Of a DNA stretch of 28,498 bases, positions 12,609 to 28,082 are shown one piece after another. The position numbers and the translations under genes were made by a program. Numbering within the stretch: position 1 is the first letter of the stretch; the number at the start of each line of letters is the position of its first letter. The DNA is from a virus, in IMG/VR virus record IMGVR_UViG_3300001533_002507, positions 1 through 28,498 of that record. The stretch is one strand, 5' to 3'. The notes under the pieces were generated by a model, which saw only the letters and a program-made list of their open reading frames with translations, did not search any database and was not told where the DNA came from.

Positions 12609-15600
12609 CTAGAGAATCGTATAACAGACGGGGATTAGCCCGGAGCTAGGAGAACCTATCCTGGTGAATGCGCCGTAGGACAAATCAAGGATTCGTCCGC
12701 CGCTATAAGGTCCCCTATCATTGACCCTTACAACCACGGATTTTTTACTCCTCCTATTGGTGACTCGGACCCTGGTGCCCATGGGCAACCTCTTGTGCGC
12801 CGTAGTCATCTTGCTGGGGCGCATAACCTCCCCAGAAGCAGTAATTTGGCCTGCAAATCCATCGCCTCTGCCATAATACGAGGCGATGCCGCACTGTGTC
12901 GCGGCGACAAGTTGCACAGGAACCAGGCTAGAGATCGTATGGGCACGGCCATCCGGCTCGGGGGTAGTCTGGGAGACGGTCACCGTACTCGCCGTAGCCG
13001 CCTTCCTAAAAATCTTATCGATCTCGATACTACTGAACCAGGCATTGGCATGTGGCATCTCGCAGATCCCGTAGTTGTACCGCAGCCATGCCCAAGACCA
13101 GAGGTGGGCGACTTGATACAGAGCGGCGACGACATCGGCGTCAGATTCTCGGCACATGTACAAAACACTGTCATGAACCGACATGCAGAACCTAGCTTTT
13201 ACACCATACCTCTGAGTCAAGTACTCCATCGCAGTCAAAAAGGCATGAAGCATCGCGCTTCCGGTAGACTGGATAACCCAGTTATTCCTCATAGTGAAGA
13301 AATCTTTCCCAACATTTTGAGGACGGAAAGCAGTAGACATTCTGGTGCCACTTAAAGGGTTTCTGGGAATTTCCGAGTTAGCGATCCTGGACATTTCATT
13401 GTAGGCAAAGGAGTCGCTGCCACCTATTAAATTGCCAGAGAAATCGCTGGCCTTCTTGCCCTTCTTCCTCTCAATTAGGGTTTTTCCCATCTCCTCTGCA
13501 TCTTTTAGACTAATAGTCTTATTTCCTTTCCTAATAGTAGCGGCTAGAGTTTTAACGCCGGAACCATAAAGCATGCCGTAGTTACACCCCTTAGCGATAG
13601 ACCTAGAGATACCGATAGTTTTCGCTGTCATCGTATGCATATCGGTGCCGTCTTCCTTCGATCCAGCAAGAACGCTATGGCCGAACTGCGTACTGCCAGC
13701 AATCTTGTGTTCCGAATCTGCAAAGATCGAAGCGACTACTGATTCTTGACCGTCATAGTCGGAAGATACAAAGGTCCAGGGAGAACTGACTTGAACCCTA
13801 GTCTTCACCTCAGTACCAATCTTGTCCGGCTTAGGATCGGGCACTGTGAGCCAGAGGTGTTCACCAGCCCGGTTAGTAGCGGTATTGTGAGGGATGGTCT
13901 GAGGGACCACTACGGTCAGATCGGAGTCTAGAGAAGGCAGTGGCAACTGCTCTTTCACCCTGCTACGGACAGAGGTCCAGTAAGACACCTTGACGGCCAA
14001 CTGGATTAGCTCTTGAGCCTGAGGCAGATCGCTAGATAACACGCCTGATTCGAAATCGTCAATGTAATCTTTACTAAGAACTCCCCCTACGTTAAGTCCT
14101 TCTCCGTTGGGATGGGGAACTCGCACATACTCGAACTTTTCAACATCGAGATAAGTCCAGCCCTTAGAGCTATCATAGACCATGGGTTGTCCGTTCCACT
14201 TCAATCTCAACAAGATGTGGCTAAGCCTACTTTTTGTGGTGATAGGCTCGAGGACGATTTTTCCCAACTCCCTGTCGTTCTTGGCATTTTTTCTGTACCA
14301 CATGGGAATCCCGTACCAGACCGACTTAGGCTGTCCGTTCTTTTTCAGAGAAAAATTAGCCTCCCAATCTAGCTGAGAGAGCCAAGGATCAGATTCCACG
14401 TCAATTGCGTCGTTCTTCCAGTCTTCAAGTAACTGCTCTGCCAAGCCACTAAGGAGTTCGTCTTGCCTGTCTACAGACTCGGACCAGATCTTTTCACATC
14501 CCTCGACCCAATCCTTCCAACCCGGAGTTACCGGGAGAATCGAAGATGTCTGAGCAAAATGCCCGTAGAGAGTCGTCAGAGACGGATTTGATTGGAGATA
14601 TTTGACGATGAGGATGGAATACAGCTCATGGGTGACTTTCACATCTCTTAAGGCGTAAGAGACGAGTTCTTCTCTGTCGGGGACAAAATCCGACATCGAG
14701 TCGGCTACAACGAAGAGGTTCCGGGTCTTCTTAGATTCTTTCTCCATCCTGACTACGGGACAGCAGTGAAAGTTATAAGCATCGACCAGATTGTTCATAG
14801 ACCCTTTATCCGCCCACTTAGGGGGAGTTTTACTCTCAAACCTGTTCATATCCGCACTCTGTCTAAACCAGAATCTCTGATCGGAAGCTAGTCCGGAGAC
14901 ATTGATATGGGCGGACAATGTGTCGAACCAAAGGTTTCCGAAGGGTTTGCTGGGATTAAACGGATCGTGCTCTAGGTAGTAAGCCTCCTCCGTCCTCTGC
15001 CTATCAAACCCCACATTGTGGGCGATTAGAATGGAATTAGTAGTACCAAGGGGTACGAGTTGTGGGACATAGGGTATCTCAGGGTCAACAAAAGACTCGT
15101 GCATCCAGATCCAGTAAGATCCGGGAGAGAATGCAGTAGCGAGAATCGGGTGCCCGAAGTCAGTCCCCTTTACGAAGGTTTCGCAGTCAAAAATAGCAAT
15201 GTCGACGCCGCTCAGGCCTTTGTCGCCCCTGACATCTACGTGCCATTCGCAGAGTTCATCGCACCAGGTATAGCGTACCCATCCAGATTCGTACACTATA
15301 TCTGAAGGGTCAGGTATATCTAGAGTATCGGTATCAGCAAAGTTGCGGAGAGTTTTTACTTTATCGCGCAACAGATCCTTGCTTATCTTGTCAAAATGCC
15401 TTGATACGTTCGAGTCTTCGAGACCGGGTAGGTAAAAGTCGGGGAGTTCTGTAAAAGACTTAGGATTTTTGATGGGGAATTCTACCCCAAACTTCTCCAT
15501 CTCATCGATGATAGGGTTTACCTCTGACCGGTCCAGGCAATAGGATTCCACAGCTTCTTTGCCGAACACCGTCTTAGTCATCTCAGGACTGAGGACGGAG

Positions 15601-15626
15601 TATCCGAGGGGATTAAGATGACCCAT
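12609..15626 (-). CDS. Family A DNA polymerase, Pol gamma-like, fused to an RlpA-like domain
   Basis: The 1005-residue product has a proofreading exonuclease: Exo I D147-C-E149, Exo II AHNVGFDRQ (202-210), Exo III Y324-xxx-D328. It also has a polymerase domain: motif A SSDYDGQE (621-628), motif B R675/K679/Y683 in ISRSIAKGCNYGMLYGSG, motif C SVHDSV (816-821). Motif wording is closest to mitochondrial Pol gamma (HNVSFDR, FNYGRIYGAG, SVHDEV); the Glu after HD is Ser here. After KIFRKA (871-876) a linker leads into a double-psi beta-barrel (about 912-1005) with E933, H944 and D970 at the spacing of RlpA lytic transglycosylases. The frame is open throughout. GTG 12983 could start the RlpA part alone. 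It is the last gene of the replication operon. Confidence 0.9.
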   Translation of the reverse strand: MGHLNPLGYSVLSPEMTKTVFGKEAVESYCLDRSEVNPIIDEMEKFGVEFPIKNPKSFTELPDFYLPGLEDSNVSRHFDKISKDLLRDKVKTLRNFADTDTLDIPDPSDIVYESGWVRYTWCDELCEWHVDVRGDKGLSGVDIAIFDCETFVKGTDFGHPILATAFSPGSYWIWMHESFVDPEIPYVPQLVPLGTTNSILIAHNVGFDRQRTEEAYYLEHDPFNPSKPFGNLWFDTLSAHINVSGLASDQRFWFRQSADMNRFESKTPPKWADKGSMNNLVDAYNFHCCPVVRMEKESKKTRNLFVVADSMSDFVPDREELVSYALRDVKVTHELYSILIVKYLQSNPSLTTLYGHFAQTSSILPVTPGWKDWVEGCEKIWSESVDRQDELLSGLAEQLLEDWKNDAIDVESDPWLSQLDWEANFSLKKNGQPKSVWYGIPMWYRKNAKNDRELGKIVLEPITTKSRLSHILLRLKWNGQPMVYDSSKGWTYLDVEKFEYVRVPHPNGEGLNVGGVLSKDYIDDFESGVLSSDLPQAQELIQLAVKVSYWTSVRSRVKEQLPLPSLDSDLTVVVPQTIPHNTATNRAGEHLWLTVPDPKPDKIGTEVKTRVQVSSPWTFVSSDYDGQESVVASIFADSEHKIAGSTQFGHSVLAGSKEDGTDMHTMTAKTIGISRSIAKGCNYGMLYGSGVKTLAATIRKGNKTISLKDAEEMGKTLIERKKGKKASDFSGNLIGGSDSFAYNEMSRIANSEIPRNPLSGTRMSTAFRPQNVGKDFFTMRNNWVIQSTGSAMLHAFLTAMEYLTQRYGVKARFCMSVHDSVLYMCRESDADVVAALYQVAHLWSWAWLRYNYGICEMPHANAWFSSIEIDKIFRKAATASTVTVSQTTPEPDGRAHTISSLVPVQLVAATQCGIASYYGRGDGFAGQITASGEVMRPSKMTTAHKRLPMGTRVRVTNRRSKKSVVVRVNDRGPYSGGRILDLSYGAFTRIGSPSSGLIPVCYTIL

Positions 15627-23274: not shown

Positions 23275-24682
23275 AGTCGAAGAGCTTTACGCTATTGCCA
23301 CTGACCCCGGGTCAGGAGCCAAGAAACTCTCTTGGGCCTGGGGTCAGACTAAGTCGTCGAGAGTTAGGAAGGCTATTGCCAGTAATCCTAACTCCGACTC
23401 AAAAATCTTAGCCATGGCGGCGAGATTGTATATCAAAGAGGTTATTAATAACCCCTCCTTAGAGTTGATTAATCTGTTTAACGAGGATAAGTTCGTTAAG
23501 GAGATCTATGAGGCCTATATGGATCCCCGCAAATATACCCGGACTAATGTAATCTTTCACTCCAGTGAGAAGGAGAATATTGCCCGGGCGATCGTAGTTT
23601 CTCCAAATCTCCGGACCTACGAGCCCCTGAGCTCGGTAATTTCTTTTATCAATCAAACAGAATTTACCAGGGAGCTTAAAGACCCCGTTGTGAAGGAAAA
23701 TATACAAAAGATTGTAAAATCCAACCTAGAACTTATTAACCTCCCCACCGCCATCTTCTTCATGAAGTGCGATGTGATCGATATCAATGACTTCGAGTCT
23801 TCTCTAGATCAGAGAATGCCCGAGGCCAGGTCGTCCAACTGGGTGGGCAAATCTACCTACTGTAAGTTTTTCACTAACTTGTCTGAGAGTTCTGCGACCT
23901 ACGAGACCCTGCTGAAGTTTATTTACACGGCTACTCCGGGTAATGTCAGGGACTTTATCAAGGTGGTCAGGGAAGATGCCAACGCATCGTCTGATGAGCT
24001 GCTAGATTTGTATGCCAGCTTGTATAAAGACTCCCTCCACATCGATGTGAGGCTCAGGAGGCACCGAAGGATAGTTTCGAGAATGAGTTATAGCTATAAC
24101 TCTAGTAGTTTGAACGAAGATGACTGGAGCAGTCACCTCTGCGACTTGCTCTGGACCGCGATTATTTCCAGAAATAAAGATGCGGTGAGAAACTTCGACT
24201 TTGAATCCATCTACACAGACCTGAGCAGAGTCGGGCTTGTAGAGGAAATGGGCCCGTATCGGTGTCCGTTGAAGTTTGAATGCGGGGGGATTTCTAATAA
24301 GAACAAGATAATCGACAAGCTGTTGGCGCTGAAGGACGACAAGGTCCTGGAGTTTTTCCTGACCAGCGGAATGGTAATAGACCACTGGTTTGTTACTAAA
24401 GACCCCAATAGCGGGGAATTTAAACTCGTCGATCGAATTAACTCTATTAACGAGCGTAAATTTCGTAGCGGAGAGCGTTTACTCTACGGGTATTCAGACA
24501 TCGATTGTTCTCCGTGTCCCAGCATCGGTCTAAAGTTTCAAAACGGATTTGATTCGGACATGAAGAGGTTTAAGGTATCTACCACTTACAGAGAGTCTGA
24601 TGCCGATCTTCTGAAGCTGCCTCTGCCAGACGTATCTGGCAGGGCGGACTTCGGGGTTTTGGATAAGATCTCTAAGCCATGA
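23258..24682 (+). CDS. Hypothetical protein, 474 aa, with repeat-like N-terminus
   Basis: From ATG 23258 the product begins MAKENKVEELYAIATDPGSG. Residues about 8-75 look like short HEAT/LRV-type repeats (SSRVRKAIASNPNSDSKILA and similar 'VRxAIAxNP' spacing). The remainder is an alpha-helical protein with many charged residues, and I cannot name its family. The C-terminus has YGYSDIDCSPCPSIGLKFQN and an Asp/Leu-rich end. No signal or membrane segment is seen. It overlaps the convergent 248-residue gene by 11 nt. The start follows directly from the zinc-finger gene and is probably coupled to it. Confidence 0.6.
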   Translation: MAKENKVEELYAIATDPGSGAKKLSWAWGQTKSSRVRKAIASNPNSDSKILAMAARLYIKEVINNPSLELINLFNEDKFVKEIYEAYMDPRKYTRTNVIFHSSEKENIARAIVVSPNLRTYEPLSSVISFINQTEFTRELKDPVVKENIQKIVKSNLELINLPTAIFFMKCDVIDINDFESSLDQRMPEARSSNWVGKSTYCKFFTNLSESSATYETLLKFIYTATPGNVRDFIKVVREDANASSDELLDLYASLYKDSLHIDVRLRRHRRIVSRMSYSYNSSSLNEDDWSSHLCDLLWTAIISRNKDAVRNFDFESIYTDLSRVGLVEEMGPYRCPLKFECGGISNKNKIIDKLLALKDDKVLEFFLTSGMVIDHWFVTKDPNSGEFKLVDRINSINERKFRSGERLLYGYSDIDCSPCPSIGLKFQNGFDSDMKRFKVSTTYRESDADLLKLPLPDVSGRADFGVLDKISKP

Positions 24683-25418
24683 GGTCTTCCCAGAACTTCT
24701 TTATCTTGTCGTCGTAGAGCCGCTTCACCTTAATAGACTGATACTTCTGAGCTCCAGTCGGATTAGTGCCATCCCGATCGTATTCGATTCCGATAGGGGG
24801 GTACTTTGCCGATGTAATAGCAATAAGGGTTGATACCCCGTCCTCTCCGGCTTCCATCTTCTTCTTGACCACCTTGACCCGCTTTTCAAAGGAGTCGGGG
24901 TCTAGAGAATTGCCCAGCCAGGCCCGAACTACATCTTCAGCGGTAAGTGTTTTGCTAGGACTAGTGTTTACCACTGCTTTTGTTCCCATATTTTCTAAAT
25001 TTCTACGGAACCGGATGGGCAAGTAGCTGGACGCCCGGCCGGAATTTTTTGACTTTTCAATTTTATTACACAATCCGGAGATAAATGCTCGGCCTTTAGA
25101 TTTCAATACGTCCTCGTAAAACACGTTGACGTAGTCTTCTGGGCTGGACTCCATGCCCTCTTTGAACCCCTCTTCCCACTCACTGAGCTTTCTCAGAACA
25201 GTAGATGTCAGGTCGGGTTTCTTGTCCTCTCTGTTCCACCTCATGCCCTGAGCACGGGCTTCTAAGATTCTCTGGTCTAGCAGTCTTTTCTTTTCCAGGC
25301 CCCCACTCTTCATCTCAACAATCGCATCGATGAGGGTCTGCTTATTGAGAGTCTGAAGCCAGGTGGGGGAGACGGAGCTCTGTAGGACGATCTTGTCGAC
25401 GTCTAAAGGGTTGGACAT
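24672..25418 (-). CDS. Hypothetical protein beside the iterons, 248 aa
   Basis: From ATG 25418 the product begins MSNPLDVDKIVLQSSVSPTW. It is basic and helical, with many Lys and Arg (MKSGGLEKKRLLDQRILEAR, KKMEAGEDG, YQSIKVKRLYDDKIKKF), as expected for a nucleic-acid-binding protein. I cannot match a replication initiator family. It is transcribed away from the iteron array, with its start 39 nt from the first repeat (25457), so an initiator or iteron-binding role is attractive but unproven. It ends by overlapping the convergent 474-residue gene. Confidence 0.55.
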   Translation of the reverse strand: MSNPLDVDKIVLQSSVSPTWLQTLNKQTLIDAIVEMKSGGLEKKRLLDQRILEARAQGMRWNREDKKPDLTSTVLRKLSEWEEGFKEGMESSPEDYVNVFYEDVLKSKGRAFISGLCNKIEKSKNSGRASSYLPIRFRRNLENMGTKAVVNTSPSKTLTAEDVVRAWLGNSLDPDSFEKRVKVVKKKMEAGEDGVSTLIAITSAKYPPIGIEYDRDGTNPTGAQKYQSIKVKRLYDDKIKKFWEDLMA

Positions 25419-25456
25419 CGGGGGGGGGTGTTTACCGGGACATAATCAACTATACC

Positions 25457-25803
25457 ACATAAAACCCACATCGGTAGCCAGAGGGCGGGAAAAAATTATA
25501 TACATAAAAGTCACATTTACCTACATAAAAGTCACATCGGTCAAAAATTTTATATACACAAAAATCACATTTACCTACATAAAAGTCACATTTACCTACA
25601 TAAAAGTCACATCGGTCAAAAATTTTATATACATAAAAGTCACATTTACCTACATAAAAGTCACAGAAAAATTATATACATAAAAGTCACATTTACCTAC
25701 ATAAAAGTCACATCGGTCAGAAAAATTATATACATAAAAATCACATTTACCTACATAAAAGTCACATCGCCTGACTGGGAAATTACCCACATAAAAGCCA
25801 CAT
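25457..25803 (+). repeat. Iteron-like array: 13 copies of a 15-bp direct repeat
   Basis: The consensus is ACATAAAAGTCACAT. Copies start at 25457, 25502, 25523, 25556, 25577, 25598, 25631, 25652, 25678, 25699, 25732, 25753 and 25789. Most pairs are spaced exactly 21 bp, two helical turns, with TTACCT between. Groups are separated by AT-rich spacers (TTTTATATAC type, CGGTCAAAAA). Outer copies (first, last) have degenerate centres (AACCC, AGCCAC). Such arrays bind replication initiator proteins in plasmids and phages. There is no coding sequence across it. Confidence 0.9.
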
Positions 25804-25846
25804 TGCCGGTCTTCGGGGGCTATTTAGGGGGTTTTTACTCCCCAAA

Positions 25847-25862
25847 ACGCTATATATAGCGT
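25847..25862. repeat. 16-bp perfect palindrome
   Basis: ACGCTATATATAGCGT reads the same on both strands. It lies 44 nt after the last iteron and next to a G/C hairpin (GGGG...CCCC, about 25827-25843). It could be a binding site for a dimeric protein. Confidence 0.7.
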
Positions 25863-26000
25863 ACCTGCCCCCTCCTCCGGCCCTCTCTCCTCCTCTCTCT
25901 CTACTCTTATACTCTTTATATACCTATATACCCATATAGTATATATGTATTATATATACAGGAATAGAGAGAGAGAAGAGGGGAAGAGGTGAAAGGAGAG
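25863..26000. other. AT-rich segment flanked by pyrimidine and purine tracts
   Basis: A pyrimidine tract (about 25872-25915, CTCTCTCCTCCTCTCTCTCT) is followed by about 45 bp of nearly pure A/T with TATATA repeats (25916-25960). A purine tract then follows (GAGAGAGAGAAGAGGGGAAG). The two tracts are imperfect inverted copies, so a large hairpin could form with the AT-rich part in its loop. With the iterons this has the look of an unwinding element. No gene is visible in 25419-26000. Confidence 0.6.
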
Positions 26001-26240
26001 ATGGAGAGGAGCAGAACCCCGGCCATGGAATTTGAATTCAACGAGACCACGATCTCTTACGATTACGAGTCACAAGAGGTACACGTTTATACAACGCTCT
26101 CAGAGGTGGCTAGAAGCCTCTTGAAGGGGCCTAAACCCCCTCTCAGGTACAAACACCTTCAACCGGGGTACGAGCTCTCCTACAGGCTCTCAGAGTGCTT
26201 AGAGCCAATCAACCTGATTAGGACTAAGAAAAATGATTGA
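26001..26240 (+). CDS. Small hypothetical protein, 79 aa
   Basis: From ATG 26001 the product begins MERSRTPAMEFEFNETTISY and has the pattern SQEVHVYTTLSEVARSLL and LQPGYELSYRLSECLEPINL. I believe I have seen similar text in small phage proteins but cannot name a family. GGAG lies 2 nt before the ATG; GTG 25989 or ATG 26025 are alternative starts. It is the first gene rightward from the iteron region, with the next gene overlapping its stop codon (ATGATTGA). Confidence 0.55.
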   Translation: MERSRTPAMEFEFNETTISYDYESQEVHVYTTLSEVARSLLKGPKPPLRYKHLQPGYELSYRLSECLEPINLIRTKKND

Positions 26241-26951: not shown

Positions 26952-27029
26952 TCCCGAGTAGCTCAGTCCGGAAAGAGCGGTTGCCTTCTAAGCAAACGGT
27001 CGGCGATTCAAATTCGTCCTCGGGAGCCA
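26952..27029 (+). tRNA. tRNA-Arg (anticodon TCT)
   Basis: Acceptor TCCCGAG pairs with CTCGGGA. D-arm GCTC...GAGC and anticodon loop CTTCTAA (TCT, reads AGA) in a TTGC/GCAA stem. T-arm GGCGA-TTCAAAT-TCGTC. The 3' CCA is encoded (27027-27029). The next tRNA begins at the following base. Confidence 0.85.
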
Positions 27030-27100
27030 GCGAGCATAGTGTAGTGGTAACACGGGATCTTTCCAAGTTCCAATCGCGGGATCGTACCCCGCTGCTCGCT
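27030..27100 (+). tRNA. tRNA-Gly (anticodon TCC)
   Basis: Acceptor GCGAGCA pairs with TGCTCGC. The anticodon loop TTTCCAA (TCC, reads GGA) is in a GGATC/GTTCC stem with one T-T mismatch. T-arm GCGGG-ATCGTAC-CCCGC has A in place of the usual first T of the loop. CCA is not encoded. Confidence 0.75.
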
Positions 27101-27115
27101 TTACTCTTTTTGACT

Positions 27116-27624
27116 TTATTCCATCAACTTCCACTCTTTGTGTAACTTTGCTTTACCATTAGCTACCCTATAAAGAGAGTTTAGATTTAACCCATCTCCT
27201 GGGGACATTTCAACTATTTCTTTTGCAGGAGTATCTCTAACCTCACCGTGGACTGGGTGAACCCAGTTTCTGGGTTTTCTCCCTTTCCTGACAGATTGAT
27301 TATTAGAACCAAGAGCTTTCCACTACTGTGGCGTAAAATCCCGGATCTTCTTTTAATTTTTGTTTAGTTTTTTCTCCACCTCTAAACGCTGCTATCTTTT
27401 GTTTCTCAAGAATAATTTCCCCCTTACCGACACTACCGGCTAAAGCTCTCCACGCCAACCTATCCTCCGGCTCCCCCCCCCCATAACTGGCAGTTACAGA
27501 AATGCCACATAGCATGCTGCACTACCGACACCTTCACGAGATTGGATGGATCATTAGACCCACCCCGGTACCTAGGTGTGATATGATGTTTATGCTTTAG
27601 AGGTGACTCAGGCTGACAGGTCAT
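27116..27624 (-). pseudogene. Decayed HNH homing endonuclease
   Basis: From ATG 27624 the first frame has the HNH start KHKHHITPRYRGGSNDPSNL, then VKVSVVQHAMWHFCNCQL. A run of ten C (ten G on this strand, about 27473-27482) shifts it into another frame (EDRLAWRALAGSVGKGEIIL, EKQKIAAFRG). A second shift near 27325 leads to WKALGSNNQSVRKGRK and a C-terminal domain with NWVHPVHGEVRDTPAKEIVE, ending at TAA 27116. The C-terminal domain is related to that of the GIY-YIG pseudogene (WFHPKHGKITG). With two frame breaks the protein should be inactive, unless the homopolymer count is a sequencing error. Confidence 0.8.
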
Positions 27625-27645
27625 GGTAATTATGCTTCTAATTAG

Positions 27646-27653
27646 CTTTCAGC
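27646..27653 (-). promoter_or_regulatory. GTTGAAAG-type motif before the HNH pseudogene
   Basis: The minus strand reads CCGCTGAAAGCTAATTAG (one change, T to C), with its first G 29 nt before ATG 27624. Even this decayed mobile gene carries the motif. Confidence 0.55.
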
Positions 27654-27703
27654 GGTTCGAAAGGAATCTTTATCTCTCTCGTGTCCGTTAATCACCCACT
27701 CCC

Positions 27704-27841
27704 ATGAAAAAGAAAAAGTTTCGAGAGATTATTCAAAGACCATTAAGATTCCACCACCAGGACATCCACGAGGAGCTGGAAGAGATTAAACTACTCTTGT
27801 ACTCCGTCTTAAAGAGGTTAGATGAACAACAACAACAGTGA
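27704..27841 (+). CDS. Small hypothetical protein, 45 aa
   Basis: From ATG 27704 the product is MKKKKFREIIQRPLRFHHQD, IHEELEEIKLLLYSVLKRLD, EQQQQ. It is a basic start followed by a helix that could form a coiled coil. It overlaps the next gene by 20 nt. Family unknown. Confidence 0.5.
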   Translation: MKKKKFREIIQRPLRFHHQDIHEELEEIKLLLYSVLKRLDEQQQQ

Positions 27842-27989
27842 CGTGCCAGGCCTCTTCACCGTCCTATGCGGCGGGGATTATATCACACTTTTGGCAAAAG
27901 GTAAACAGTCGGCATTGTCCGCTGCCATAGAGCTGTATCCGGGCAAAGCAGACTACAGACTAGTGTCTCCCGAGCCGATGTGGAAGTAG
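27822..27989 (+). CDS. Small hypothetical protein, 55 aa
   Basis: From ATG 27822 the product is MNNNNSDVPGLFTVLCGGDY, ITLLAKGKQSALSAAIELYP, GKADYRLVSPEPMWK. It looks like a small alpha-beta protein. It ends 4 nt before the extended -10 box of the CAU tRNA. Real coding is likely from composition and overlap with the previous gene. Family unknown. Confidence 0.5.
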   Translation: MNNNNSDVPGLFTVLCGGDYITLLAKGKQSALSAAIELYPGKADYRLVSPEPMWK

Positions 27990-27992
27990 CTC

Positions 27993-28001
27993 TGGTATAG
28001 T
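27993..28001 (+). promoter_or_regulatory. Extended -10 promoter at the CAU tRNA
   Basis: TGGTATAGT (27993-28001) predicts transcription starting near 28008, at the 5' end of the tRNA (28010). The same 13-nt string occurs at 26839. Confidence 0.5.
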
Positions 28002-28009
28002 ATCTGCAG

Positions 28010-28082
28010 GGGGGTTTAGCAATCTGGTGAATGCTCGAAACTCATAATTTCGCCGAGGCGAGTTCGATCCTCGCAGCCCCCA
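28010..28082 (+). tRNA. tRNA with anticodon CAT (Met, or Ile if lysidine-modified)
   Basis: Acceptor GGGGGTT pairs with AGCCCCC. Anticodon stem CGAAA/TTTCG with loop CTCATAA. T-arm GCGAG-TTCGATC-CTCGC is perfect. A six-G run begins one base before the tRNA. CCA is not encoded. Elongator Met and Ile(AUA) cannot be told apart by eye. Confidence 0.8.

Follow-up and report, generated by a model that had tools for sequence, protein, structure and literature searches.

A phased direct-repeat array upstream of a conserved orphan gene as a candidate iteron-type replication origin in S-TIM5-like cyanophages

RESULTS AND DISCUSSION

Main finding

In a 28,498-nucleotide viral DNA record (IMGVR_UViG_3300001533_002507; its whole length is called the window here), 13 direct repeats in helical phase lie upstream of a gene that belongs to a family conserved among S-TIM5-like cyanophages. 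We propose that this locus is an iteron-type DNA replication origin bound by a phage protein, and we consider the balance of probability for this proposal to be even. It is preferred over three other readings, which are, in decreasing order of probability, a divergent control region, a packaging or partition site, and repeats of neutral origin. The first-pass annotation had described the layout of a candidate iteron origin with an initiator gene. The layout is as described and the locus is conserved in relatives, whereas a recognizable initiator and, in S-TIM5, a switch in GC skew were not found. The features on which the argument rests are as follows.

24672..25418, minus strand: 248-codon gene assigned to the S-TIM5 gp003 family, directed away from the array (tblastn, synteny, and a 27-member alignment)
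25449..25454, minus strand: -10-like hexamer TATAGT, adjoining the first, degenerate repeat (direct reading; putative function)
25457..25803, plus strand: direct-repeat array, 13 copies of ACATAAAAGTCACAT in 21- and 33-bp steps (pattern search, spacing counts, shuffles, and control windows)
25827..25843, no strand: short inverted repeat GGGGGTTTTTACTCCCC (a similar inverted repeat occurs in a related contig)
25847..25862, no strand: 16-bp palindrome ACGCTATATATAGCGT (identical in a related contig)
25886..25902, plus strand: pyrimidine arm of an inverted repeat (fold z -4.1)
25903..25967, no strand: AT-rich segment between the arms, candidate unwinding element (AT content)
25968..25984, plus strand: purine arm, complementary to the pyrimidine arm (folding)
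26024..26240, plus strand: small divergent gene (homologues on the same side in the related contigs L009, L036, and L037)

Source phage

Gene content and synteny assign the window to an S-TIM5-like cyanomyovirus, of which it is a 28.5-kb fragment. It carries a gamma-like family-A DNA polymerase, a long tail sheath, topoisomerase II, and the gp003-gp004 synteny. Identity to S-TIM5 and its sister isolates is 57% for the DNA polymerase, 54% for the tail sheath, and 41% for topoisomerase II; no close DNA match to the window was found among annotated phages. The order gp003, gp004, topoisomerase II and the repeat-rich non-coding DNA upstream of gp003 are shared with S-TIM5 and its relatives (genus Aurunvirus). 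The repeats in S-TIM5 and these relatives lack the 21-bp phase, and the S-TIM5 record is broken at this region.

The repeat array

When the 28,498-bp record was searched with ACATAAAAGTCACAT at up to two mismatches, 13 matches were obtained, eight of them exact, all on the plus strand and all within 25457 to 25803. The rest of the record gave no match at this threshold, and the reversed control pattern gave none anywhere in the record. The thirteen 15-bp repeats of the first-pass annotation were therefore recovered in full. Their start-to-start spacings are, in order, 45, 21, 33, 21, 21, 33, 21, 26, 21, 33, 21, and 36 bp. An interval of exactly 21 bp accounts for 6 of the 12, and one of 33 bp, or about three helical turns, for 3 more; the earlier description of copies mostly two turns apart holds for the former but not for the rest. 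Most copies follow directly on TTACCT or TTATAT, so that the working unit extends beyond ACATAAAAGTCACAT. The true unit of the array is about 21 bp, arranged head to tail in pairs and triplets with 12-bp spacers between the groups. Within a repeat pair, ACA returns every 10 to 11 bp and thus marks one helix face at each turn.

The array is genuine and far above chance expectation. In the 900 bp upstream of the 248-codon gene, there were 48 pairs of identical 8-mers spaced 20 to 22 bp apart, against 0.08 expected from dinucleotide shuffles, and at most one in each of 86 control windows of the same record. Iteron origins of plasmids and phage lambda combine helically phased direct repeats of about 15 to 22 bp with an AT-rich stretch to one side and a gene beside them. 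The array has the same multiple same-orientation repeats of about this length in helical phase, an AT-rich side, and an adjacent gene that may encode the binder. It differs from those origins in its greater number of copies, in a repeat word that varies between close relatives, and in the lack of a recognizable winged-helix initiator and of a consensus DnaA box. DnaA boxes are present in many iteron origins, though not in all, and are not strictly defining. No exact DnaA box (TTATNCACA) occurs in the window; TTATATACA, one mismatch away from it, opens five of the 21-bp units (at 25496, 25550, 25625, 25672, and 25726).

Flanking elements and a possible divergent control region

The 16-bp palindrome reported earlier to follow the array was located (ACGCTATATATAGCGT), and the pyrimidine and purine tracts said to enclose an AT-rich segment proved to be true inverted arms. 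Positions 25900 to 25964 are 77% AT, and the most AT-rich 60-mers of the window fall in the segment between the arms and inside the array. This module could act as an unwinding element, could form a leader hairpin in the divergent transcript, or could do both. The listed open reading frame of the small divergent gene opens at 25989, and its conserved start is probably 26024.

If the locus is an origin, a phage-encoded sequence-specific protein would bind the 21-bp units side by side on one helix face. The bound protein would bend or strain the DNA and open the adjoining AT-rich segment, and the opened segment would allow the phage helicase-primase and the family-A DNA polymerase to start. The binder may be the adjacent gp003-family product or the phage's own primase-helicase. 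The same binder might also control the 248-codon gene, as suggested by the degenerate repeat lying directly against that gene's -10-like element. TATACT stands at the matching place beside the array in L009, and the degenerate first repeat at a -10-like element in both the window and L009 is as expected if the origin binder regulates this gene.

These elements also bear on a second reading, in which the repeats serve as operators through which a phage or host regulator switches the 248-codon gene and the divergent small-gene cluster, with the AT-rich inverted-repeat segment supplying the promoters and the leader hairpin of the divergent transcript. We regard such an early control region as possible, although on the improbable side. 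It accords with the position between divergent genes, the -10-like hexamer abutting the first repeat in both the window and L009, the TATAAT-like sequence read directly after five of the units on the minus strand, the good folding of the arms as a leader hairpin, and the S-TIM5 gene block of 161.9 to 163.9 kb that lies on the other side in L079. However, 13 operators over 350 bp exceed the usual regulatory need, and a consensus scan of the region found no complete sigma-70-type site where 2.0 were expected by chance. Moreover, divergent transcription is not constant, because the other neighbor reads towards the array in L039 and L044. A search of the array for host regulator sites gave no full match to CRP, NtcA, or Pho-box sites. 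The origin and control readings are not mutually exclusive, since iteron origins commonly regulate the initiator gene.

Conservation of the locus in relatives

A topoisomerase-based search collected 51 loci. At most of those reaching far enough, a gp003-family gene stands in the same gene order, and its synteny with topoisomerase II is conserved in dozens of IMG/VR contigs. The window has two close relatives, one of which ends short of the array. In the nearest relative that includes the region (L009, contig 3300005512_000063), the gene is 80% identical and the 850 bp past the array are 89% identical. Its array comprises 13 good copies of ACAyArAAATCACAT together with degenerate ones, again in 21- and 33-bp steps. 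The repeat word is thus shifted between L009 and the window, and the repeats changed in concert despite a well-kept gene and flank; the 16-bp palindrome and much of both arms are conserved. When IMG/VR was searched for a repeat pair, the exact word of the window was found nowhere else, and a degenerate form in only this one related contig.

Related phages had been proposed as a check for conserved iterons, and phased arrays were indeed found at the same locus in L009 and, with other words, in distant relatives: CCTTCGTGTAGTTTT in L039, GGCCTAACTGTATTTT in L044, and AAAACACAAAACATT in L040. These words are concentrated upstream of the gp003-family gene, with few near-matches elsewhere in the L044 and L040 records. 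L034 has a weaker repeat of 20 bp, and the phase signal is weak in L037 and marginal in L036 (one pair, equalled by 3 of 45 control windows). In total, about six separate lineages show a clear phase signal, and 366 control windows of the same contigs gave almost exclusively zero for the 20- to 22-bp signal, with a maximum of 1.

Most of the relatives tested carry abundant repeats in the non-coding DNA upstream of gp003. Within the subclade that includes the window, repeats phased at 20 to 22 bp are nearly always present there, with a lineage-specific word. Repeats also abound at this locus in the S-TIM5 core clade, but they are of 98 to 99 bp or irregular, and a 22-bp signal occurs in L054 alone. 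S-TIM5 and S-TIM54 differ in their repeats at the gp003 locus, with flanks about 90% identical.

Beyond the array, the window, L009, L037, and L040 possess an AT-rich segment with complementary arms (fold z -2.5 to -4.2), which is weaker in L036 and L034 (fold z -1.5). In the first four, a pyrimidine-rich arm is followed by a purine-rich one, and the arm sequences differ. Divergent genes flank the site in the window, L009, L036, and L037, and also in L079, across the S-TIM5 record break.

Judged from these comparisons, the place is conserved group-wide and the phase across the subclade of the window, whereas the word changes. Such turnover at a fixed place and phase fits the co-evolution of a binding protein and its sites. 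The conserved phased locus thus speaks for a cis-acting site recognized by a sequence-specific protein.

Slippage or recombination in a fast-evolving region could also have produced an expansion without essential function, kept by chance. The lineage-specific words, the variable copy number, and the 98-bp tandem repeats of S-TIM54 where S-TIM5 carries others would suit this explanation. We consider it very unlikely, given that position and 20- to 22-bp phase recur in lineages with unrelated words and that the flanking palindrome and arms are conserved; neither a two-turn period nor a constant place upstream of the same gene is expected of neutral repeats.

As separate observations, the S-TIM54 tandem repeats at the gp003 locus (L027:264-557) contain runs of N. 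Palindromes resembling CCCTTGCGCTGCAAGGG are repeated in the array region of L039 (2251-2629) and L044 (3124-3523), and related CCCTTGC words occur in L034, L036, and L040.

Record ends, inversions, and skew

The S-TIM5 record begins in the array region, and many contigs end nearby. A physical genome end at this locus, which the stops of many contigs and four records had brought into consideration, was rejected, since L079 reads through. L079, which is 90% identical to S-TIM5 here, crosses the record start into S-TIM5 161.5 to 163.9 kb in reverse orientation. The last 11 kb of the S-TIM5 record (NC_019516, 161.5 to 172.5 kb) seem inverted relative to L079 (L079:1-3100), and S-TIM54 has a further inversion near its record end. 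Short inverted repeats are found at the inversion junctions of S-TIM5, L079, and S-TIM54, so that the inversions are either genuine or products of misassembly. This uncertainty weakens conclusions drawn from contig ends or from cumulative skew.

The same ends have to be weighed for a packaging or partition site, at which an oligomeric protein, for example a small terminase, would bind a pac-like or centromere-like array. Many long contigs do end near the locus, which also stands at the ends of the S-TIM5, S-TIM54, S-TIM61, and S-TIM66 records, and one gp003-family member weakly matches a small-terminase PHROG (E 0.039). However, most breaks look like assembly breaks, because L079 crosses the end of the S-TIM5 record without interruption and several S-TIM5-like contigs stop in GC-rich DNA. 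In addition, the window and L009 extend about 2 to 3 kb beyond the array, and the S-TIM5 large terminase is distant, at 111.5 kb. A packaging or partition role is thus unlikely.

A change of GC skew at the locus, which had been put forward as a sign of an origin, was not seen in S-TIM5, where cumulative skew mostly tracks gene direction. GC3 in S-TIM5 gave no replication-strand signal, and re-inverting 161.5 to 172.5 kb still gave no skew switch at the locus.

The adjacent gene and candidate binders

The 248-codon gene is weakly similar to S-TIM5 gp003, at positions 1310 to 1519 of S-TIM5 with 27% identity (tblastn, E 2e-4), and its synteny matches, and the alignment of 27 family members contains a conserved motif around WNxxNxxP. 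The gene had been described as encoding a basic protein and as directed outward. Both statements hold in the window (pI 9.3, minus strand), but the basic charge is not a family trait, as pI ranges from 4.9 to 9.6 and many members are acidic. The protein matched no family in Pfam, PHROGs, or NCBIfam and had no significant sequence match in the PDB. A structure model from three sequences was poor (pLDDT 45), and one from 27 sequences was all-helical and locally good (pLDDT 79, pTM 0.45). For the latter, Foldseek against the PDB returned no E value below 0.9, VIA-align 2 gave no Z above 2.9, and a viral structure library yielded only the S-TIM5 homologue. The view of this protein as a recognizable initiator was thus not supported: no likeness to one was detected in family, PDB sequence match, or modeled structure. 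With neither conserved charge nor a family or fold match, it is a candidate binder by position only.

The primase-helicases of other replicons, such as phage P4 alpha, bind origin repeats themselves. The S-TIM5 primase is annotated with a DUF5906 domain and is possibly a helicase-primase of this origin-recognizing kind; by this analogy, it would be an equally reasonable candidate. The likeness to P4 is limited by the position of the S-TIM5 primase gene, far from the array and outside the window, and by repeat binding that is putative. Confidence in the origin reading is kept moderate by the all-helical model with no known initiator fold, the non-conserved basicity, the lack of a GC-skew switch, and the missing consensus DnaA box.

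Relation to known systems

No mapped origin for S-TIM5-like cyanophages was found in the searchable open literature. The nearest described case is the PLE satellite of Vibrio cholerae, whose origin lies in a repeat-bearing non-coding region between divergent operons and is bound by RepA (PMC7145576). One repeat set of that region proved to be origin iterons and another did not (PMC7145576), which warns that repeats alone do not make an origin. An origin-directed phage nuclease is thought to have selected for changed and diversified PLE replication modules (PMC8263062), and similar selection is a possible cause of word turnover at the array. The two systems share non-coding repeats between divergent operons and variation of the repeats between variants (PMC7145576, PMC8263062). 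They differ in that PLE has three semi-palindromic repeats of about 30 bp and a RepA_N initiator, whereas the array has 13 non-palindromic repeats and an orphan protein.

If the origin reading is true, the origin could be placed in cultured S-TIM5 by a single sequencing experiment, a function would be given to an orphan gene family that this phage group conserves, and a naturally occurring series of jointly changed repeats and partners would be available. A bolder version, which we hold to be doubtful, is a new origin class in which gp003-family proteins are initiators of an undescribed fold and the iteron word is repeatedly replaced while phase and place stay fixed, perhaps under origin-directed nucleases or satellite competition.

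Two further observations concern the window itself. The DNA polymerase open reading frame (12609 to 15626) is fused in frame to an RlpA-like double-psi beta-barrel domain; as the two are separate genes in seven relatives, the fusion is either local to this record or an error. Three tRNA genes (Arg, Gly, and Met) lie past the array, at 26952 to 28082.
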